Positions 5,786 to 19,222 of a stretch of 40,906 nt of DNA are shown one piece after another; the first letter of the stretch is position 1, and every line of letters starts with the position of its first letter. This DNA is from Sphingobacterium thalpophilum (lineage in GTDB: Bacteria > Bacteroidota > Bacteroidia > B-17B0 > Aurantibacillaceae): the NCBI GenBank assembly GCA_943325195.2, contig CALPON020000009.1, positions 1-40,906 of the forward strand, in the 5' to 3' direction. Position numbers and translations under genes: made by a program. The notes beneath the pieces were generated by a model, which made no database searches, was not told the DNA's origin, and saw nothing but the letters and a program-made list of their open reading frames with translations.

Positions 5786-5829
5786 ACTTTTAGGCAGGAG
5801 CATTGCTTTTATGTTTCCCCTTTTTAACT

Positions 5830-5837
5830 TACATTTG
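5830..5837 (+). promoter_or_regulatory. Bacteroidota -7 box TACATTTG, upstream of the PD40 gene
   Basis: Exact TAnnTTTG match 13 bp before the chosen ATG at 5851, so the leader would be very short. A TTG at 5803-5805 lies 24 bp upstream, slightly longer than the usual -33/-7 spacing. The position supports the internal ATG over the upstream one at 5803, which would lie before the transcription start. Confidence 0.55.
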
Positions 5838-5850
5838 CGTCTTTTCCAGC

Positions 5851-6888
5851 ATGAAATTACACTCGATTTCCTTTATTCTTGCACTGAGCGTCAGTGCCTT
5901 TTCCCAGACAGAAAAACACTTTAAAAATCTGACCATGTTGACCCACGGTGGTGACAATGCAGAAGCCTATTTTAGTTTTGATGGGAAGTATGCCAGTTTT
6001 CAAAGTAATTACACAAATTGGGGATTGCAATGTGATCAGATTTTTAATTTGGATATTGCAAAAGCTTCTAAAGACACAACGTATCGGCCCCCACTCATCA
6101 GCACTGGTAAAGGGCGGACCACCTGTAGTTTTTTCATGAAGGGCAACAAAGAGATTCTTTATGCTTCTACGCATCTGGCTGGGGATGCATGTCCCGAAAC
6201 GCCGCGCTTACCCGGTAAATACCTTTGGTCGGTGCACGCCTCTTACGATATTTTTGTCAGTGATTTGACTGGAAAAATTCTCCGTCAGCTTACAACTTCA
6301 CCGGGTTATGATGCAGAGGCCACGGTATCTCCCAAAGGCGATATGATCGTGTTTACAAGTGACCGCAGTGGTGACCTCGAATTATGGACCATGAATCCCG
6401 ATGGCAGTAATCAAAAACAAATCACTTTTGGTTTGGGCTATGATGGCGGTGCTTTTTTCTCTCCTGACGGCAAAAAACTAGTCTTCCGTGCCTCTCGGCC
6501 GCAGTCTGATGAAGATCAGAAAGAATATAAAGATCTTTTGAAACAGGGACTTGTGGCTCCCAGCACGATGGAGATTTACACTTGCAATGTAGATGGTTCT
6601 GAGCTTCGCCAAATCACTCACTTGGGCAAGGCCAACTGGGCACCTTTCTTCCATCCAAAGAGTAATAAAATTATCTTTTCAAGTAATCACCACAGTGCCA
6701 AGGGTTATGATTTTCAATTATGGCTAATTAATCTGGACGGTACTGGACTGGAGCAACTAACCTTCGAAAGTATGTTTAATGCGTTTCCCATGTTTTCGCC
6801 GGACGGTAAAAAACTTATTTTCTCAAGTAACCGCAAGAATGGCGGGACAAGAGACACGAACTTGTTTATCTGCGATTGGGCGGATTAA
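5851..6888 (+). CDS. TolB-like PD40 beta-propeller, secreted or periplasmic
   Basis: A 345-residue exported protein made almost wholly of WD40-like PD40 (TolB) blades. The signal peptide is MKLHSISFILALSVSAFSQ. Blade motifs repeat along the chain: ATVSPKGDMIVFTSDRSGD, GAFFSPDGKKLVFRASRP, PFFHPKSNKIIFSSNHH and PMFSPDGKKLIFSSNRK, each with a DxDG-type turn such as NPDGSN or NVDGSE. The frame is open to an ATG at 5803, but the start at 5851 gives a clean signal peptide and follows a -7 box. There is no OmpA-like or sorting domain. Such propellers usually mediate protein binding; a specific role cannot be assigned. It is monocistronic and divergent from the efflux operon. Confidence 0.85.
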   Translation: MKLHSISFILALSVSAFSQTEKHFKNLTMLTHGGDNAEAYFSFDGKYASFQSNYTNWGLQCDQIFNLDIAKASKDTTYRPPLISTGKGRTTCSFFMKGNKEILYASTHLAGDACPETPRLPGKYLWSVHASYDIFVSDLTGKILRQLTTSPGYDAEATVSPKGDMIVFTSDRSGDLELWTMNPDGSNQKQITFGLGYDGGAFFSPDGKKLVFRASRPQSDEDQKEYKDLLKQGLVAPSTMEIYTCNVDGSELRQITHLGKANWAPFFHPKSNKIIFSSNHHSAKGYDFQLWLINLDGTGLEQLTFESMFNAFPMFSPDGKKLIFSSNRKNGGTRDTNLFICDWAD

Positions 6889-6964
6889 AGCACTTGGCTC
6901 CGCTGTAAACAATTCAATGTTCACTTATGGGGTCATTCCCATTGTTTGAACAATTGGAATTATA

Positions 6965-6972
6965 TACATTCG
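6965..6972 (+). promoter_or_regulatory. Probable promoter of the kelch gene
   Basis: TACATTCG differs from TAnnTTTG at one fixed base. A TTG at 6943-6945 sits 19 bp upstream, a normal spacing. The ATG follows at 6992. The -33 area overlaps a small inverted repeat, ATTGTT-TG-AACAAT (6942-6955). Confidence 0.4.
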
Positions 6973-6991
6973 TGATATAAAAATAATTTCT

Positions 6992-8866
6992 ATGAAGCAG
7001 TTTTTCGCCGGTCTGATGGTATTGACCTTGCTCAGTGCAGCGGACATGAATTCTCAGCATTTTGCATGGATGGGTGGTAGCACTGGCACCGGAGCAGCTG
7101 GTGACTATGGAACACAAGGCGTTCCTTCGGGGACCAATACCCCTGGAGCAAGAATGGCTCCCGCAGATTGGCAAGATGCTTCCGGTAATTTTTGGTTGTT
7201 CGGGGGAAACGGGCTTGATGATTTTGGAAATAACGGTTACCTGAACGATCTCTGGCGTTACAATCCCACTAATCAACAATGGACTTGGATAAAGGGTGAC
7301 AATCTGATTGCTCAAGTAGGTGTTTATGGTACGCCCAGCGTTTCTGCTGCTAGTAATAAACCAGGAGGTCGCACCGAAACAGCGCAGTGGCGCGATAATC
7401 AAGGAAATATCTGGATTTTCGGTGGGTATGGTCATGATGGTTTATCCTCACTTGGCCTGTTAAATGACCTTTGGAAATATGATCCTCTTTTAAATCAGTG
7501 GACATGGATGAAAGGCAGTAATACAACCAATGGCTCTGCTGTCTACGGCACGGTCAATGTGAGCTCTATTTCAAATACCCCAGGTCCTCGTAAAGGGGCA
7601 GCTACCTTCCTTGACAATGCGGGGAATCTTTATCTTTTTGGCGGAATTGGTACGGGCAGCAATGCGACTTATGGGAGTCTGAATGATTTATGGCGCTACA
7701 CGATTTCAACCAACAGCTGGACTTGGATTAATGGAAGCAATGTGGTCAATCAAAACGGCTCTTATGGTTCATTAAATACCGCTTCTGTCAGTAATAGTCC
7801 TGGATCCCGCTCAAACACGAGCAGCTGGAAAGATGCAGCTGGCAATTTTTGGATGTTTGGCGGGGATGGATATGATGCGCAAATTCCCACCAAAAGTTTT
7901 CTCAATGATTTGTGGCAATATGACCTGACTTCTAACATGTGGGTTTGGAAAGGTGGTACTACCGTGCTGACGTCCCCAGGTGTTTATGGAACGCCAGCTG
8001 TACCGAGCACTAGCAATATTCCAGGAGCTCGCCAGAGCGCTTTTACTTGGGTGGATGCGGTTGGCAATTTCTGGTTGCTAGGCGGGGCAGGAGTTTCTAC
8101 CGGGACGCTAACGGGACAATTGAATGACCTGTGGAAATATAACAAAAACACCAGCGAATGGGTTTGGCTAAAAGGCACCAGCCTTGTAAATCAGCCTGGT
8201 ACTTATGGTTCAGTGACCGTGCCTACCTTTAATAACCGTCCTGGCGGAAGAAGTTCAGGTGCTGCCTGGATGGATGCAAACAGTAATCTCTGGTTATTTG
8301 GAGGCTCCGGTTTTGGTACAGGAAGTTCCAGTTCCGTCGACTTGGTGAATGATGTCTGGCGCTACACCAACTGCTTCATCAGTCCAATTACCATGACCAT
8401 TATTGCAAAAGATAGCATCATCTGCGCTGGCGAAAGTACCTCACTCACGGTGAACGGAGGTACTAATTACTTGTGGAGTGTAAACTCGGTAACCATTAAT
8501 AATATTGCCATCAGCCCAAATGTGACGACAACTTATTCTGTCGGCACAACGAACGCGAATGGTTGCACCTATTTCGCTTCTTTTACAGAGATTGTAGATG
8601 CTTGCCAGAATATCAACAGAATTCTTGCTGCTGATGCCTTTGCCGTCTATCCCCTACCTGCTCAAAACAGTCTGACCTTTAAATTCGGAGAAGCCTACGC
8701 AGGCATGGACATCATTATTCGGGATATTCAGGGAGCAATAATCCTGACCGACATCTTGAATATCTCCCCTGCAACCATCAGTATCGATTTTGCGAAAGGG
8801 CTTTATTTTTATGAGGTCAGGGACAAGAATAGAACGCTGAAGAGTGGGAAATTAATTAAAGAATAG
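6992..8866 (+). CDS. Six-kelch repeat protein with T9SS sorting domain
   Basis: Predicted secreted or cell-surface protein of 624 residues exported by the type IX system. It has an N-terminal signal peptide (MKQFFAGLMVLTLLSAADMNSQ). Six kelch-type modules of about 70 residues follow (about 55-460), each with a GN-W-FGG core, an LNDLW-Y strand and a W-W turn, joined by linkers with VYGT and PG-R. Then comes an Ig/PKD-like module (about 470-545; IICAGESTSLTVNGG) and a C-terminal T9SS type A domain (VYPLPAQNSLTFKF, then a final KSGKLIKE). The six modules should close one propeller. Its last 11 bp overlap the convergent glycosyltransferase gene. The ligand is unknown. Confidence 0.88.
   Translation: MKQFFAGLMVLTLLSAADMNSQHFAWMGGSTGTGAAGDYGTQGVPSGTNTPGARMAPADWQDASGNFWLFGGNGLDDFGNNGYLNDLWRYNPTNQQWTWIKGDNLIAQVGVYGTPSVSAASNKPGGRTETAQWRDNQGNIWIFGGYGHDGLSSLGLLNDLWKYDPLLNQWTWMKGSNTTNGSAVYGTVNVSSISNTPGPRKGAATFLDNAGNLYLFGGIGTGSNATYGSLNDLWRYTISTNSWTWINGSNVVNQNGSYGSLNTASVSNSPGSRSNTSSWKDAAGNFWMFGGDGYDAQIPTKSFLNDLWQYDLTSNMWVWKGGTTVLTSPGVYGTPAVPSTSNIPGARQSAFTWVDAVGNFWLLGGAGVSTGTLTGQLNDLWKYNKNTSEWVWLKGTSLVNQPGTYGSVTVPTFNNRPGGRSSGAAWMDANSNLWLFGGSGFGTGSSSSVDLVNDVWRYTNCFISPITMTIIAKDSIICAGESTSLTVNGGTNYLWSVNSVTINNIAISPNVTTTYSVGTTNANGCTYFASFTEIVDACQNINRILAADAFAVYPLPAQNSLTFKFGEAYAGMDIIIRDIQGAIILTDILNISPATISIDFAKGLYFYEVRDKNRTLKSGKLIKE
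7150..8370 (+). repeat. Six tandem kelch-module coding repeats
   Basis: Diverged tandem repeats of roughly 205-220 bp inside the kelch gene. The phrase encoding LNDLW or VNDVW followed by Y recurs six times. The copies differ at many third positions, so this is an old duplication kept by selection rather than recent satellite DNA. Confidence 0.8.
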
Positions 8867-11194: not shown

Positions 11195-12643
11195 TTATTG
11201 ACCGATCATCAGATGAACCGTCTTGCTCTGCTGTTGAGCATTGCGGACTGTCACCAGATAAGTTCCGGCTTTCAGTTGAGACAAATCGATGCTTACTTCA
11301 GTGCTAGTGGTATGGCAATTGAGGACAGCTTGGCCCAGTACATTGTATACCGTGATATCGTTCTCGCCGATTAGGCCGCTGACAAGGGTGGAACCGTTGG
11401 CAGAAGGATTTGGATACATTTTTAATTTTGCAAAGGCTGAATTTTCGATCAGACCTGTTCCATCATCACTACAGAACTTAAGACAGATGCGGAAAGGCTC
11501 GTTATAAGAAAACTCTGGCTGACGTCCGAATGCGCTCATTGGACGTAGTTTGGCGCGAAACTGGTTATCCCAGCAGCCGGCAAGGTCACTGTAGGAAATA
11601 ATGGTGTTTGGATTCGTATTTGGATAGCGGTATGGTAAAAATACCCGTGGATCGCGAGGAGGCATTGCATTTTCAGTGTATTCAAAGTTCCAGGTAATAG
11701 CGGAGTCAGCTGAGAAACCACCGCAGCAAACAGGGGTTGCCACAAACGCATAATACAGATTCCATTTGCGATAAAACTCATTCAAGTTATAAAAGCGATT
11801 GGTAAACTGCCATGAGGAGGTATTTGTAAAGGTAAACTGAGTGCGTGTACAGATGGTGTCACTCGTTGACGGATTTGCATTAAAATCCAGGATATTCTGT
11901 GGAATTTGCTGACTCGCTTGAACGGTATAGGTTACACGTGGCGCTACCATGAATTCATAATCTGTCCCCACGCCATAACCAGGGGTCATGGAGAAGTTTT
12001 TAGTGCTATAGAACGTAGCGGCATTCGCATTGGCTTTGTAGCGAATATAGCCGTAGTCACCGTCAGAGTATTTTCTGGCTGAAGTTGCACCAGCGCCTAT
12101 CACGTTGGTTGGGGTTAGACCAGCTGTCCGCAAAAGTTGCAGGGTGTCACCGCAAAAATTAGACATGTTACGAATAAGGACGGCAAAGTCGCCTGAAACC
12201 ACGCGTGGTGTTACAAAGTTACCTCCTAGGATGCCCGGTTTGTTCTTATACGAGGAGTTCACCTCCGTCACAACCGAGTCAATAGCTGGTAAAATCGGAA
12301 CGCCGCTACTGTTTAAATTACAAAGGTAGAGATGCACAGGGAACTTAAGATTAGCGGTCACGCCCGGCATACCGGCATATGCTTCCAAACCAGTTACAGT
12401 CAGATCACTAACTGCATTCTCAAAACGACTACCCACATGCGTTACACTCGCATTTGAGCATTTTGGTGAAGGATCTTTGAAAAAGGGATAGTTGCTGTAT
12501 GTGGTGACACCGGTTTTAAAATAGTACTTATTGAAATAATAGTGCAGCGTATCGACTACTGTTGCAGTATTAGTCGTTTGTGCTTTTAAAGAAACGCCCA
12601 GCGAAAGTAAAACTGTACTGAGCAAAAGTAATTTTTTCATCAT
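11195..12643 (-). CDS. Secreted protein of unknown function with T9SS sorting domain
   Basis: A 482-residue predicted type IX secretion cargo. It has a signal peptide (MMKKLLLLSTVLLSLGVSLKAQ). Residues about 25-390 are a beta-rich region that I do not recognise, containing GLEAYAGMPGVTANLKFPVH and a CCGG motif. Several cysteines (in PKCSN, NFCGD, DTICT, VCCGG, GCWDN, ICLKFCSDD) may form disulfides outside the cell. The C-terminal T9SS type A domain is clear: LKMYPNPSANGSTLVSG, ITVYNVLGQAV, and the closing KAGTYLVTV. Start could be either of two adjacent ATGs (12643 or 12640). It has its own -7 box (12666-12673) and a strong terminator, so it is probably monocistronic. No enzymatic motif was seen. 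Confidence 0.85.
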   Translation of the reverse strand: MMKKLLLLSTVLLSLGVSLKAQTTNTATVVDTLHYYFNKYYFKTGVTTYSNYPFFKDPSPKCSNASVTHVGSRFENAVSDLTVTGLEAYAGMPGVTANLKFPVHLYLCNLNSSGVPILPAIDSVVTEVNSSYKNKPGILGGNFVTPRVVSGDFAVLIRNMSNFCGDTLQLLRTAGLTPTNVIGAGATSARKYSDGDYGYIRYKANANAATFYSTKNFSMTPGYGVGTDYEFMVAPRVTYTVQASQQIPQNILDFNANPSTSDTICTRTQFTFTNTSSWQFTNRFYNLNEFYRKWNLYYAFVATPVCCGGFSADSAITWNFEYTENAMPPRDPRVFLPYRYPNTNPNTIISYSDLAGCWDNQFRAKLRPMSAFGRQPEFSYNEPFRICLKFCSDDGTGLIENSAFAKLKMYPNPSANGSTLVSGLIGENDITVYNVLGQAVLNCHTTSTEVSIDLSQLKAGTYLVTVRNAQQQSKTVHLMIGQ

Positions 12644-12859: not shown

Positions 12860-15800
12860 ATGCCAGAAAGCACCTGGACCAGCTCATATTTAGTAAAAAG
12901 CATATTCCGTAAGAATATTCTCGTATTGGTTTCCCTGCTGATTCTATCTGTAGCGCATGCTCAGCCAGGAGATGAGATTAAAATGCAGGCTGATAAGCTC
13001 TTTAAGGAGGAGAAGTATGACGAGGCCTACAAGTATTACTCACAATTAGTATCCAATTTCCCAAAAGATCCCGAATATAATTTCCGACTCGGTGTCTGCA
13101 TGATTTACAGCGAACCAGATAAAACAAAGTGCATCCCCTTCCTCAAGACTTCTGCCGCCAATACTGCAGAGGCTCCCAAAGAGGTCCTTTTTTACCTCGG
13201 TAAAGCCTATCACATTAATTACCGCTTTGATGAGGCAATTCGGAATTACAATGAGTTTAAAAAGACGGCATCTTCTGGCCTGCAGAAAAAATTACTGGTC
13301 GACCGGGAGATTGCTTCTTGTAACTCAGGTAAACGCTTATTAAGTAATGTAACGGATCTGGTGGTCTTAAATAAGAAAGAACTGGCCAAAGTTGATTATT
13401 TCCGGAGCTATGACATGAAAAAAATGGGTAAACTCCTGGCGAAGCCGGACGAGTTTAAGACCTCACTTGACAAGAAGAAAAAAGATAATTCGATTGTCTT
13501 CCTCCCCTCTAAATCGGATGTGATTTATTTTAGTAGTTACGGTGATGATCCAGCAACTGGTAAAGATATTTACACGTCGCGCCGCGTCAATGGTGTATTT
13601 GGAAAGCCAGAAAAGGTACAGATGATTAACACGGAGTTCGATGAGGACTTCCCTTTCCTACATCCCGATGGCAAGACTTTGTATTTCGCTTCCAAGGGCT
13701 TTAATAGCATGGGGGGCTATGATATTTTCCGCTCTACTTTTAATCCAGGAACACAAACTTGGAATGCCCCAGTTAATATGGAATTTCCAGTTAACTCGCC
13801 GGATGATGACTTTCTCTATGTAACCGATTCCCTAGAAACAGTGGCTTTTTTTAGCACTGGACGCCAAAGTCCTCCGGGAAAAATTGATGTCCTTAAAGTC
13901 AAAACCAAACGCCGCGCCATGGATATGATGGCGGTAAAGGGACAAGTAAAATCTGACCAGTCAGACCAGAGTCTGGCCAGTGTCATCACCGTTAAAATTA
14001 TTGGTGGACCACAGGAATTTGGAAAGTTTAATGCGACGGAAGAAGGAAATTACACACTCGAAATTCCCAGCGGTCTAAAAATTGCATTAACGGTCGAGAC
14101 ACCGGGTATGCAAACGCAAACGGCTGAAGTCCTCGTACCGGCCACCGAAAGTCTTAAACCGATGCGCCAAACAATTTCTTATCAAAATGGTCAGCTTTCG
14201 ATCGAAAATTCTTTTGAGGACACTGCTGGCGATGACAGCTATCTGGAGTATCTGAATGTCATTGAAAAGAAAGCAAAGCTCAATGTTAATGGCACTGAGG
14301 GCACAGAAGATGCTGCACCATTGGCGGCAGTTACTGGGGCGACAACGCCGGCACCTACTTCATCTGTTACTCCGAGGTCGAATAAAGAATTGGGGGACAT
14401 AGCACGGAAAGACGCTGAAGAGTCCAGGTCAGAAGCAGCCTTACTGCGCAGTGAGTCCCAAAACGCAATTGACGCAGGCACTAGTTTCAATACAGAAGCG
14501 CAGCGCAAGAAAGTGGCTGCAGACCTTGCGCGCGAGACAGAACCAGCGGTGGCAGATTCATTACTAAAAGGTTCTGAACGCGATGCAGAACTCTCCACCC
14601 GCATCTTGGCCTTCGGAAATGCACTAGCTGAGGATGCAGAAAGAAAGGAAAAAGAAGCGGCGCTGAATGAACAGTATTCTTCTGAACTGGCCATTGCCAT
14701 TTCTACAAAAGACCCTAAGTCCGTTCAAAAATTAGCGGATCTGCAGAAACAAATAGAAGAATTATCAAAACAGGAGAACGCTTCAGCGGAGCGTCTTTCT
14801 GCACTAAAATCAGAAATTGCGGAAAGCGAAAAAGTGGTGAGTCAATTGGAAACTGAGAACCAAGAGCTATCCGCTTCCATTACCGAGCTCAGTGGCCTTA
14901 TCAAGAATAAAGAACTGGAGTTAGATCAGGCCCGAAAGAAAAAGGACAAGGAGCGCTTGTCAGAAGAGCTAGCGAATCTTCGCTTGGAAAAATCGTCACA
15001 GGAAAATGAACTGGAGACCAATAAGACTACTTCGACTCGCGTGCAGGATGAACTGGGTGCCGGCAAAAAAGAACTCAGTGTCGCCACAACACTCCGCGAG
15101 AGTGCAGTTGCCGCGGCTCCAAAATCCGCTCCTGCTAACTTAAATGCAAAGCAACTTCGTGATTTTTACGCTTCAAAAATTCTGACTGCAGATAATAATG
15201 ATGAGGGTAGTATACAGTCTAGTAACACAGCCTTAATGAGCTATACTAAGGACTTAGAAGCCGCTCTGGAACGCAGTAAAGCAGCACAGGCATCACTTTC
15301 GCCGGTAGAAAAGCAGGCGCAGGCCGCTGAAATCAAAGCACTGGAGAATGACAAAAAATTAATTCAAACCCGTCTTGCTTCGAATGAAAACAGACTAAAC
15401 GAATTAGCGAAGATTGAGAAGAAAGAAAAAGTAGTGCTAGAAACCAATTCGACTTACCAATCCATTAAAGCAAATAATCCTCTGGAAGCCATGAGTCTCA
15501 TTAACGAGATCAGCAGTGACCTCCAGGATACGGAGGATGAGTTGTTCAGTATTAATTACAAGAGTCCTGCCGCCCTCCAACTGCGAAATGAAGCAAGTGC
15601 TAGCCTCAACTCGGCCAGTGCGAGACAAAATCAGGTACTAGAGGATCTGAGGCTGGCGAAGGAACAGCTCCAGAAAGTGGATCCCAATTCGGCGCCAGAA
15701 GTCGTTTTAGCGGACTCATTGACTGCTAAGGCGGAATTGCTTAGCCTGCAAGCGCAAGAGCTTCGAGATAAGGCCTCCTCCGCAACTGGAACTGATAAAG

Positions 15801-18800
15801 ACAATCTGATTAGTAAGGCTAAAAAATTAGAAGACCAAGCCTCAGATCAAAACATTTCAGCTTCAGAAATTAGTAGTCAAGATAAAACTTTGATCTTTGC
15901 AGCAAATAAAGAAAATATTCAGAATCTGATTAAACTCAACCTAGCGACTGAGCAGGATTTGGCTACTGCTAGGCGGTTAAGTGATGAAGCCGTTCTTTCT
16001 TTCCGCAAAGCGGGGGAAATTCGCATCGAAGCGCAGGCGATGCTGAATAAAGGATCCAAGCTTGGTAGTTATAGTAATGCAGAGGACCTCGAATCCGAAG
16101 CCATCCTTAAGCAAGAACAAGCTATTGAATTGCTGATGCAGACCAGTGGTGACTTTGCGCTAAAGACCGCTAATACCAGTCTGGTTAGAGCCAAAGCACA
16201 AGCAGAAACTCCAAAAGAACCAGGACTTAATGAAGCACTTAGCACTGTTAACGCAGGCTTAGTCGAACTGGGAGATCTAAAACTTCAGTCCTATCAAAAA
16301 TTATATCAGGCCAATGCTGCAGAGCTTGAGGCACTGAATGCGGAGGTGATGGCGAAAGAATCTGTTGCGCTCAAGACCCCTTCCTTGAAGACTGAATTAC
16401 TGCGAACTAAGAAATTGATTGGCTATGCTATTGAATTTAAAACGAGTTCCGATGCAGCAAATGAGACCAATGAGAAGTTTAACTTTTTGGTGACTGCTGT
16501 AAAACAACAAAATCTCGCTCAGCAAAAACTGGCTGAATTAAAATTCAATATCGACAAAGCAGAGTCACAGGCTAAAATGGCGCCAGTGGTCACCGAAGTG
16601 GTCGCCATTGAAACGACTGTGGAGCCTACTCAGGAAAAGACAAACACCGCAGCTGTTAAAACAAATGAGCCCCTTGCAGTAAAACAAAAAAATACAAGCC
16701 CATCACCGAAAAAACCAGTGCAAACAAAGAAAGCGGTACCGCCTCCTAATAAGTCGGAACCAGTTGTAGCACGAGTGACCGCAAAAAACAATGCCGTTTC
16801 TCAAACGGAAAGCCGAATAATTGACATTTCAGAAGTAGCCAAAAAAGATACAAGCTCCAGCCAGGTCATCACCTACCTAGATTCAAAAAACCAGATTTTA
16901 AAGAATGAAGAGGCCGGCACTATGATTCAATCCAGCTTGGCGCGCTTAAAATCACTTGAAACAGAAATGACCGCTGCCAACGAGGTGGTCCGCAGAAATG
17001 ATGCCCTCCAGAACAACCTTATAAACGCCTCAGCTGAACCCGCAGAGATGCGGACAAAAGCGGACGCTTTGTTAGATGAGTCTGAAAAACTATCAGCAGA
17101 AGCCGCAGAGGCAAAAGCTTCTGCAGCAAAAGCGGCAGGACTTCAGCGCGATGCATTCCTGACTGAGGCAAGAGAACTTGAAAAGGAATCTCAGGAAAAA
17201 ATGATGACCTCTGCTCAGCAAATGCAAATGGCAAATGAGAAGGAAGTCCGAGGTAATTCCCTTGCCATTCAAGAACTTCTAGAACTACTGAATAAGGATG
17301 ATGCCGATGCGGCAGCGGCTCTCAAGCAGAGTAATGATGATCTGACTGCACTGAAGACGAGTATTCGAAATCTAAGGGAAGAAGTGAACGCACAAACCAA
17401 TCCTTCTGCCAAAATGGGCGCTATCGGAAATGCAGAAGAAAAAGAAGTTGAATTGCTACAACTGCAAGGTAAAATTCTAAGTTCCCTTCGTCAGCGTTAT
17501 CCGGACTATACCATGACCCCCGTGGCGGACGATTTAACTAGCCTTGATCCACAAGCGGAAGAAAAACGTAAAGAACTGATGGATGAGCAATACACGCAGA
17601 TGATCAATCTGACAAATGGCTATAGTCTCGAATACGAGACAGCAAAGGTCGCCGTTCCCGTCTCAATGACCGATGCTGATCTGGAATTAAAGAAAAATGC
17701 TGACGAATTGAATACGGAATCCAAACGACTGCTCATTGCCTCTGCCATGGAACCTGATTACAGTCGCCGTATGCGTCTGCTTGCGCTTGCAGCAAAATAC
17801 GGTAACTATGCAGTAGAGCAACTGGCGCAAATTACTCAGCCTGGCCAAAGCAAGGTGGCACAAAACAATAAAAAATCGCCAGCAGGCATGGACTTTAGCA
17901 AGGTGCAGATGGTTGACGCCAGTCAACCTGCAAGCCAAACACAAAAAAGAACGAAAGCTCCTCAAGAAAAACCTGTAGCCGCTAAGAAAGAAAAAGAAAC
18001 AATTTCTACTCCATCAGTGGCAGCCGCGCAGCCTGCAGCGGTTGCAAAAACAACCGGAATTAAGATTGCCAAAGGAAATGCATATACCAATGCCAATCCA
18101 ATTCCTATTAACGCTCCAATGGAACAAGGATTAGTGTTTCGTGTACAGATTGGTGCATTTAAAACAGCTATTCCAAACAACGCATTTAAGGGATTAAGTC
18201 CCATGAATGGTGAGACCACTGCCAGCGGCTATATCCGCTATACGGCTGGAAACTTTCAGAAAATGGAGGGTGCAACTGCTGTTAAAAATGATTTGCGCGG
18301 ACTCGGCTATGGGGATGCTTTTGTCGTTGCCTATTTAGATGGTAAACGTATTTCAATCTCTGATGCATTAGCTGCCATGAAGGAAAAAGGAATTTTAATA
18401 GATGAGGCAGCGCCAAAAACCGCGGGCATAACGGCAAATGAGAACATTCCACGTGCTGCGCAAAGTGCAGAAGTAATAGCGCCAGTAAAAGTGGCAAAAG
18501 AACTTGAAAAAAGTAAAGCCCTGCTCTACACGATTCAGATTGGGGTCTTCACTAAACAAGCTACGGTGGCTCAGCTAAGGGGACTAACACCGGTTTGCGC
18601 TGAGTCTCTAACTAACGGACTTTTCCGCTATACAGCGGGTATCTACAACAGTCCTGAACGCGTGGTAGACGCCAAAAACAAAGTGGCGAACATGGGTTTC
18701 CGTGATGCATTTGTCAGCGCCTACCGTGACGGTAAACGCATTTCTTTTGGTGAGGCAAGAACATTACAACAAAACGATCCAGCTATTCAAACCGAATCCG

Positions 18801-19222
18801 AAAATCCTGTGCAGTTGGGCAACAGTTCAACAGACTTCGTCACGGTGAGTCCTTCAGCCATAAGCAGTCCAAGCATTGTGGTTTATACCAACAGCATCAG
18901 CACTTACCCTGAAGCGACGGAAGAAAATGGTATCAAAACGGATGAAAAAGGAATCTGCTATAAAATTCAGTTGGGAGCCTTCAGCAAAGAAGTCCCCGAG
19001 GACATGGTAAACCTATTTAATCAGATTAAGAACTGGCCCGTTGAATACAAAATCATCAACGGACTGTATGTGTATACCGCTGGAAATTATAGTTCAGTCA
19101 AATTTGCATTTGCGCTGCGTGATGAAATTAAGGAGTTGGGACTGCAAGACGCCTACCTTACGGTTTATCGTGATGCTAGCAAACTGTCGGGTACAGAAGC
19201 AGAAGAGTTACTTCGCGAGTAA
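12860..19222 (+). CDS. Giant TPR-PD40-CRD-coiled-coil protein with three SPOR-like modules
   Basis: About 2,120 residues, probably periplasmic. A signal peptide ends near residue 34 (LLILSVAHAQ). Domains in order: TPR-like helices (35-145; YDEAYKYYSQLVSNFPKD); PD40 propeller blades (205-365; FPFLHPDGKTLYFASKG); a carboxypeptidase-regulatory-like beta domain (359-445; VKGQVK to LEIPSGLKIALTVETPG); a huge Ala/Glu/Lys-rich helical and coiled-coil region (507-1667) with Lys/Pro-rich linkers; and three SPOR-like modules (about 1758-1840, 1888-1965, 2033-2110) beginning FRVQIGAFK, YTIQIGVFTK and YKIQLGAFSK. SPOR domains bind denuded peptidoglycan. The first three domains match the order in the T9SS protein PorE, whose OmpA-like end is absent here. 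The frame extends to an ATG at 12722, but that adds 46 unlikely residues before the signal peptide. The function is inferred as an envelope scaffold, not shown. Confidence 0.85.
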   Translation: MPESTWTSSYLVKSIFRKNILVLVSLLILSVAHAQPGDEIKMQADKLFKEEKYDEAYKYYSQLVSNFPKDPEYNFRLGVCMIYSEPDKTKCIPFLKTSAANTAEAPKEVLFYLGKAYHINYRFDEAIRNYNEFKKTASSGLQKKLLVDREIASCNSGKRLLSNVTDLVVLNKKELAKVDYFRSYDMKKMGKLLAKPDEFKTSLDKKKKDNSIVFLPSKSDVIYFSSYGDDPATGKDIYTSRRVNGVFGKPEKVQMINTEFDEDFPFLHPDGKTLYFASKGFNSMGGYDIFRSTFNPGTQTWNAPVNMEFPVNSPDDDFLYVTDSLETVAFFSTGRQSPPGKIDVLKVKTKRRAMDMMAVKGQVKSDQSDQSLASVITVKIIGGPQEFGKFNATEEGNYTLEIPSGLKIALTVETPGMQTQTAEVLVPATESLKPMRQTISYQNGQLSIENSFEDTAGDDSYLEYLNVIEKKAKLNVNGTEGTEDAAPLAAVTGATTPAPTSSVTPRSNKELGDIARKDAEESRSEAALLRSESQNAIDAGTSFNTEAQRKKVAADLARETEPAVADSLLKGSERDAELSTRILAFGNALAEDAERKEKEAALNEQYSSELAIAISTKDPKSVQKLADLQKQIEELSKQENASAERLSALKSEIAESEKVVSQLETENQELSASITELSGLIKNKELELDQARKKKDKERLSEELANLRLEKSSQENELETNKTTSTRVQDELGAGKKELSVATTLRESAVAAAPKSAPANLNAKQLRDFYASKILTADNNDEGSIQSSNTALMSYTKDLEAALERSKAAQASLSPVEKQAQAAEIKALENDKKLIQTRLASNENRLNELAKIEKKEKVVLETNSTYQSIKANNPLEAMSLINEISSDLQDTEDELFSINYKSPAALQLRNEASASLNSASARQNQVLEDLRLAKEQLQKVDPNSAPEVVLADSLTAKAELLSLQAQELRDKASSATGTDKDNLISKAKKLEDQASDQNISASEISSQDKTLIFAANKENIQNLIKLNLATEQDLATARRLSDEAVLSFRKAGEIRIEAQAMLNKGSKLGSYSNAEDLESEAILKQEQAIELLMQTSGDFALKTANTSLVRAKAQAETPKEPGLNEALSTVNAGLVELGDLKLQSYQKLYQANAAELEALNAEVMAKESVALKTPSLKTELLRTKKLIGYAIEFKTSSDAANETNEKFNFLVTAVKQQNLAQQKLAELKFNIDKAESQAKMAPVVTEVVAIETTVEPTQEKTNTAAVKTNEPLAVKQKNTSPSPKKPVQTKKAVPPPNKSEPVVARVTAKNNAVSQTESRIIDISEVAKKDTSSSQVITYLDSKNQILKNEEAGTMIQSSLARLKSLETEMTAANEVVRRNDALQNNLINASAEPAEMRTKADALLDESEKLSAEAAEAKASAAKAAGLQRDAFLTEARELEKESQEKMMTSAQQMQMANEKEVRGNSLAIQELLELLNKDDADAAAALKQSNDDLTALKTSIRNLREEVNAQTNPSAKMGAIGNAEEKEVELLQLQGKILSSLRQRYPDYTMTPVADDLTSLDPQAEEKRKELMDEQYTQMINLTNGYSLEYETAKVAVPVSMTDADLELKKNADELNTESKRLLIASAMEPDYSRRMRLLALAAKYGNYAVEQLAQITQPGQSKVAQNNKKSPAGMDFSKVQMVDASQPASQTQKRTKAPQEKPVAAKKEKETISTPSVAAAQPAAVAKTTGIKIAKGNAYTNANPIPINAPMEQGLVFRVQIGAFKTAIPNNAFKGLSPMNGETTASGYIRYTAGNFQKMEGATAVKNDLRGLGYGDAFVVAYLDGKRISISDALAAMKEKGILIDEAAPKTAGITANENIPRAAQSAEVIAPVKVAKELEKSKALLYTIQIGVFTKQATVAQLRGLTPVCAESLTNGLFRYTAGIYNSPERVVDAKNKVANMGFRDAFVSAYRDGKRISFGEARTLQQNDPAIQTESENPVQLGNSSTDFVTVSPSAISSPSIVVYTNSISTYPEATEENGIKTDEKGICYKIQLGAFSKEVPEDMVNLFNQIKNWPVEYKIINGLYVYTAGNYSSVKFAFALRDEIKELGLQDAYLTVYRDASKLSGTEAEELLRE
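15710..17850 (+). repeat. Internal helical repeats in the giant protein
   Basis: Two ungapped ~55-residue segments align well: 15710-15874 (ADSLTAKAELLSLQAQELR...) and 17060-17224 (ADALLDESEKLSAEAAEAK...). They are exactly 450 codons apart. Both share the AD-L-E-LS-A pattern and a later D-L-A-LE pattern. A shorter relative lies at 17699-17850 (ADELNTESKRLL). This suggests that the rod grew by duplication of a helical unit. Confidence 0.6.
18131..19200 (+). repeat. Three SPOR-like module repeats
   Basis: Three related coding units at about 18131-18380, 18521-18755 and 18956-19190. Each begins with a VQIGAF-like strand, has a central RYTAG or VYTAG core (YIRYTAGNF, LFRYTAGIY, LYVYTAGNY), and ends with DAF-AY-DGKRIS or a variant. 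The third copy has drifted most at its end (RDASKLS). Confidence 0.8.

Follow-up and report, generated by a model that had tools for sequence, protein, structure and literature searches.

A giant protein of Bacteroidia with a PorE-like head, a long helical rod and three SPOR modules: a putative peptidoglycan tether

In this paper we looked at a giant gene in a 40,906-nucleotide window, contig CALPON020000009.1 (C9 in the 217-contig, 2.9 Mb draft genome of an uncultured Bacteroidota bacterium). The gene encodes a variant architecture, in which a PorE-like head is combined with a long rod that carries an array of SPOR modules as the putative wall anchor. Read from its sequence, the most likely activity of this protein is the binding of denuded glycan by a periplasmic tether. 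Peptidoglycan binding is the likely job of its C-terminal, as suggested by the predicted SPOR folds, and a role in cell division is plausible.

Protein architecture

The giant protein is encoded by a single uninterrupted open reading frame (ORF) on the + strand, from the ATG at 12860 to the stop at 19222, and the reading of this 2120 amino acid coding sequence (12860..19222) is supported by relatives of similar size. Structure prediction and fold comparison give the order, from N- to C-terminal, of a signal peptide, a TPR domain, a PD40/TolB-like propeller, a transthyretin/CarboxypepD-like domain, a helical rod and three SPOR folds. An accidental or assembly fusion of three genes was ruled out, as the same architecture is found in ~90 distinct relatives; nearly all of these conserve the three SPOR modules, so the architecture is not due to chance. 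The protein is real and conserved; each of its parts is ordinary, and what is unusual is their combination.

Two Pfam matches score above the cut-off, PD40 at residues 254-290 (9e-8) and SPOR at residues 1890-1952 (7e-5); TPR_2 and CarbopepD_reg_2 fall under their own curated cut-offs. AlphaFold models were obtained for residues 37-1000 (alignment of 21 sequences; mean predicted local distance difference test, pLDDT, 77.8; predicted template modelling score, pTM, 0.45) and for residues 1735-2120. A whole-model Foldseek search with the N-terminal half returned generic helical matches at its top ranks, and the domains were resolved by VIA, whose Z-scores were weighed jointly with domain coverage and Pfam matches and never by themselves. 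The preliminary description of a single ~2,120-residue protein with TPR, propeller, carboxypeptidase-regulatory-like domain (CRD), rod and three SPOR modules is thus confirmed by the intact ORF, Pfam, AlphaFold and VIA, and the fold prediction it called for at the head and the C-terminal end gave both propeller and SPOR folds. Scans for promoters and terminators stayed near the shuffle expectation.

SPOR modules and the glycan groove

The three SPOR modules, all on the + strand, occupy residues 1757-1835 (18128..18364; Gln1763, Phe1767 and Arg1793), 1888-1965 (18521..18754; Gln1893, Phe1897 and Arg1923) and 2032-2120 (18953..19219; Gln2037 and Phe2041, without an Arg at the equivalent site). 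AlphaFold and conservation support modules 1 and 2, the latter being also the one matched by Pfam. In the model, module 3 shows the classical beta-alpha-beta-beta-alpha-beta order and modules 1 and 2 are without helix 1. Direct alignment to solved SPOR structures covers module 3, which matches the CwlC SPOR domain (1x60) in a hidden Markov model (HMM) profile comparison (4e-5) and, by VIA, resembles CwlC (Z 6.9), RlpA with glycan (Z 6.8) and DamX (Z 5.2). The matches to the SPOR domains of FtsN and DedD, with Z about 4.1, are level with unrelated folds and were excluded from the evidence. Module 1 was assigned as SPOR by the element order it shares in the model and by its high similarity to module 2.

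Glycan recognition by SPOR domains involves a pattern of Gln270, Phe274 and a basic patch that includes Arg309, with Q251 and R285 in FtsN (PMC6895207). Among 91 distinct sequences, the filled rows carry the groove Gln in 89/89 cases for module 1, 91/91 for module 2 and 74/88 for module 3, and the Arg equivalent to RlpA R309 and FtsN R285, its position being set by motif spacing, in 86/89 rows of module 1 and 90/91 of module 2. The earlier proposal that SPOR modules replace the OmpA end is supported by the SPOR folds at the C-terminal and by the lack of any Pfam OmpA match in the giant, and its suggestion that this end binds peptidoglycan is likely to be right, based on the predicted folds and the conserved groove residues. 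With FtsN, DamX, DedD, RlpA and CwlC the giant shares the SPOR fold and the groove Gln and aromatic residue (and the Arg in modules 1 and 2), yet it differs from them in having three modules, a very large rod and a TPR-propeller head, with no membrane or lipid anchor and no enzyme.

Other SPOR-type proteins were seen in the same genome. An adjacent pair on contig C22 (L175:3253-5835 and 5792-7330, - strand) consists of an 861 amino acid protein, in which two to three stretches are SPOR-like and one of these passes the Pfam cut-off, and a 513 amino acid protein with one stretch that resembles the giant's SPOR modules and has no Pfam match. A 349 amino acid protein on contig C32 (L178:2607-3653, + strand) carries two CCDC81-like prokaryotic HU domains (DNA-binding type) and a C-terminal SPOR, all over the Pfam cut-offs. 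In another genome, which is without a giant, a 743 amino acid ORF (G081:C29:27364-27981) matches the giant's SPOR modules 1 and 2.

Proposed function

The N-terminal, by sequence reading, is a Sec signal peptide (residues 1-34; 12860..12961, + strand) with an expected cleavage at AHA/Q35; it contains no Cys and hence no lipobox, and AQ/SQ-type ends lie close to the predicted cleavage point in 80/89 relatives. The giant has no match to the type IX secretion system (T9SS) type A sorting domain (Por_Secre_tail) and ends in SPOR module 3; an identity as T9SS cargo was rejected for the lack of this C-terminal domain. A signal peptide without a lipobox and the absence of a sorting domain both count for a soluble periplasmic tether.

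We suggest a mechanism in which the giant is exported by Sec and stays soluble in the periplasm, where its three SPOR modules would dock on peptidoglycan strands stripped of their stem peptides. Such denuded strands are made by amidases, mainly at the septum, which would place the giant there too. The helical rod would space the molecule and probably multimerise it, and the head of TPR, short propeller and transthyretin-like domain may hold a partner protein, which would most likely lie towards the outer membrane. As a result an envelope component would be concentrated or held at division sites, in what may be a SPOR-based counterpart of tethering by Pal or PorE. For this full reading, in which a soluble protein of the periplasm serves as scaffold or tether, is docked by SPOR on denuded glycan, holds a partner at division sites and works outside the T9SS translocon, we consider the chances to be about even. 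That the SPOR ligand could in principle be made in the same genome is indicated by an Amidase_3 enzyme (L177:2419-3957, + strand, on contig C125), a likely source of denuded glycan, whose SPOR-like C-terminal lies below the Pfam cut-off and is locally 38% identical to module 1.

Several observations weigh against a division scaffold of this kind. The Arg site of module 3 is Ile or Val in most rows, and two relatives (L052 and L053) are without a recognisable SPOR motif. A sample of 198 genomes across the phylum held 2 clear members, the window genome and one other; with the family missing from most sampled Bacteroidota, a universal role in division is excluded. The conserved gene neighbors are mostly metabolic and therefore say little on division.

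If the tether reading is true, many Bacteroidia would have, among their largest envelope proteins, a hitherto unnamed wall tether; the PorE-type head could be seen as a unit for docking in general, its wall anchor having been swapped from OmpA to SPOR; and cell division would become more accessible in a phylum whose SPOR-dependent steps are little studied. The strong conservation and the distinctive ends make binding and localization tests simple. A wider version is that an ancient family of giant periplasmic scaffolds in Bacteroidia would connect septal denuded glycan with partners in the outer membrane or envelope, and so take over part of the role that Tol-Pal or FtsN-type proteins play elsewhere; it is tentative and, in our judgment, unlikely.

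The N-terminal head and its relation to PorE

The AlphaFold model of the head shows eight TPR-like helices, a beta-rich stretch and a second beta-sandwich, thereafter only helices. The TPR domain was placed at residues 38-161 (12971..13342, + strand) by a weak Pfam match, AlphaFold and VIA matches to TPR proteins with Z about 10, and spans model positions 1-127 (residues 37-163). It is followed by a short PD40/TolB-like beta-propeller at residues 165-353 (13352..13918, + strand), supported by Pfam PD40 and by a VIA match to TolB with Z 11.6 over 126 residues, and by a transthyretin/carboxypeptidase-regulatory-like beta-sandwich at residues 357-454 (13928..14221, + strand; Pfam below cut-off, VIA Z about 9.6); AlphaFold and VIA put these two at model positions 160-315 and 321-418. 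The propeller stretch of ~190 amino acids can hold about four blades at most.

In P. gingivalis PorE the TPR spans residues 25-149, the propeller 167-435 (269 amino acids), the CRD 441-527 and the OmpA domain 534-668 (PMC7192894). The order of TPR, propeller and CRD that had been likened to PorE is borne out by AlphaFold and VIA, with a propeller ~80 residues shorter than in PorE, because only ~190 residues remain for it. Together with this order the giant shares with PorE and CHU_0125-type proteins a related head sequence and a C-terminal end of the peptidoglycan-binding kind; it differs from them in having no OmpA and no lipobox, in the shorter propeller, in the ~1,150-residue rod with three SPOR modules, and in forming its own clade. 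In a tree of head sequences, 38 giants form one clade (Shimodaira-Hasegawa-like approximate likelihood-ratio support, SH-aLRT, 100), apart from 16 OmpA-type and two short SPOR-ended proteins, although the giants had been selected for their length and their resemblance to the window protein, a choice that may favor a single clade.

The NCBIfam PorE model gives the giant 86.4 bits against a cut-off of 600, in a partial match to PorE positions 288-489 of 648, and the CHU_0125 model 68.8 bits against 620, also partial. The window genome has about 10 better-scoring PorE-like proteins, the best with 468 bits and an OmpA end; because this protein is also under the PorE cut-off, the cut-off is not decisive alone. 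Membership of PorE was rejected on the OmpA domain, the model score and the lipobox taken together. By these tests the giant is not a member of the PorE family, though it may act in a PorE-like manner by holding something to the wall.

One could ask whether the giant is a specialised PorE variant, whose head binds a PorP-like barrel or another T9SS part and whose SPOR array replaces OmpA, anchoring the T9SS or type B cargo. The identical domain order fits this option, as does the fact that PorE binds PorP and peptidoglycan and that six porP-like genes of F. johnsoniae adjoin porE-like genes (PMC9143113, PMC7192894). SprA is found in every giant-bearing genome tested, and in the window's genus the divergent neighbor often encodes T9SS cargo (a match near the giant in 16/30 loci). 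However, the low and partial model score, the missing lipobox and OmpA, the short propeller and the better PorE-like proteins of the same genome all speak against it, and the neighbors that were scanned include neither a T9SS core gene nor PorP. SprA was detected in the window genome and in 30/30 genomes tested, with or without a giant, so that dependence on the T9SS is unsupported; the eight SprA-positive genomes showing no giant (G025, G026, G031, G034, G037, G038, G040 and G081) speak against an obligate place of the giant in the T9SS, and co-occurrence is uninformative on whether it is needed. We therefore regard a PorE variant as unlikely. A T9SS role, and with it the association drawn in the preliminary description, is unsupported given the PorE score of 86 bits, SprA in giant-less genomes and the non-T9SS neighbors outside the genus. 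That description had also considered homologues sitting mainly in genomes without the T9SS and SPOR-dependent division proteins; the window genome has SprA and SPOR proteins, including the Amidase_3-SPOR enzyme.

A periplasmic propeller fold of the TolB type is shared with TolB/Pal, but only part of the TolB propeller is matched and the flanking domains are others; no TolB above the curated cut-off was found in the window genome. Also related in architecture are two short proteins of the same genome, with 762 amino acids (L173:4134-6419, - strand, on contig C16) and 735 amino acids (L174:1283-3487, - strand, on contig C5). Like the giant they have a PorE-like head of TPR, PD40 and CRD, and a SPOR-like module takes the place of OmpA at the C-terminal; they differ from it by having no rod and a single SPOR-like module, unreported by Pfam, and by belonging to a separate clade. 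In another genome a 995 amino acid protein (L184:4292-7276, + strand, on G002:C53) apparently contains the giant's head region twice and has no SPOR match.

The helical rod

The rod extends from residue 508 to about 1,660. Its first part (residues 508-1237; 14381..16570, + strand) is modelled by AlphaFold to residue 1000, and beyond this point its helical nature is suggested by composition and conservation. The modelled part consists of helices of about 20-58 residues with turns between them, some stretches being of low confidence, and includes an antiparallel coiled-coil-like hairpin at about residues 641-751. A Pro/Lys-rich linker, probably disordered, follows at residues about 1238-1341 (16571..16882, + strand; from sequence). 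A 210-residue unit is duplicated in the rod, with copy A at residues 898-1111 (15551..16192) and copy B at residues 1345-1562 (16892..17545), both on the + strand; hhalign aligns them with an E of 2e-27 and a score of 194, compared with at most 47 for 20 heptad-block-shuffled control sequences. In comparisons of single sequences, most members of the genus show the duplication above the shuffled controls, but some relatives do not.

A continuous coiled coil of 1,150 residues was rejected, as the modelled half is made of broken helices, and scans of hydrophobic periodicity gave no consistent heptad signal along the rod. A match to SMC (0.001) reflects generic coiled-coil similarity. Of the ~1,150-residue helical rod first described, the helical nature stands for the residues modelled to 1000, but one single coiled coil does not, given the short helices, the Pro/Lys linker and the duplication. 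A continuous straight helix of the whole rod length would measure about 175 nm, so one straight rod that spans the periplasm is not expected; with the modelled half broken into hairpin-like helices, the suggested bridging of the periplasm is doubtful. Conservation is far higher in the head and in SPOR modules 1 and 2 than in the rod, as is expected for a spacer.

These features could also suit a general structural tether over the whole sacculus, which gives stiffness or spacing, uses denuded glycan wherever it occurs and has no division role. Three tandem SPOR modules and a long rod fit avidity and spacing, and the length of the relatives (1,192-2,320 amino acids) varies widely, mostly in the rod. 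Yet characterised SPOR proteins are mostly linked to division (PMC6895207) and bind a ligand that is enriched at the septum, and we find such a tether rather improbable.

Family distribution

About 90 distinct relatives, mostly of 1,400-2,400 amino acids, were found, spread over no fewer than 11 lineages of Bacteroidia at the family level. Among 41 genomes that were searched, related giant ORFs were detected in nearly all members of the window's genus and in many other families, and the full locus was read for 20 of these giant-bearing loci. A scan of GTDB genomes gave 80 loci, partly overlapping the 41-genome set, nearly all from metagenome-assembled genomes labelled Bacteroidetes, Flavobacteriales, Crocinitomicaceae, Vicingaceae or Bacteroidales. 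This is an old, widespread and apparently undescribed family: literature on SPOR with PD40/Bacteroidetes, on SPOR with Flavobacterium and on giant SPOR proteins gave no description of such proteins, most subscription journals being outside the coverage.

Gene neighborhood

Outside the window's genus, the giant usually lies in a block of envelope and housekeeping genes in the order P1500-PlsY-giant-ClpS-M48-NfeD-FloA. Upstream, PlsY is found in 18/40 loci and P1500 in 13/40; downstream, ClpS is found in 38/57 loci and M48 in 30/57, with NfeD/FloA further down in 9/57. P1500 (L051:13779-18290, - strand) is a conserved 1500 amino acid protein that apparently carries a signal peptide and is matched by neither Pfam nor NCBIfam, and the window genome has a homologue with 37% identity on another contig (G000:C131:75-4442).

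This block raises the option that the giant acts as a co-factor in the quality control of membrane lipids or of proteins, working with P1500, PlsY, the M48 protease and NfeD/FloA and using SPOR only as an address. The neighborhood is conserved across families and P1500 is retained, though unlinked, in the window genome. However, PlsY, ClpS and PrmA have housekeeping roles in the cytoplasm or inner membrane, and in the window's genus the block is broken and the giant is kept; a quality-control role is thus very unlikely. In the window, genes for a T9SS cargo protein, GDPD and Hsp90 flank the giant. The first of these is the divergent type A cargo gene (Por_Secre_tail; 11195..12643, - strand), which we do not claim as a functional part of the system.

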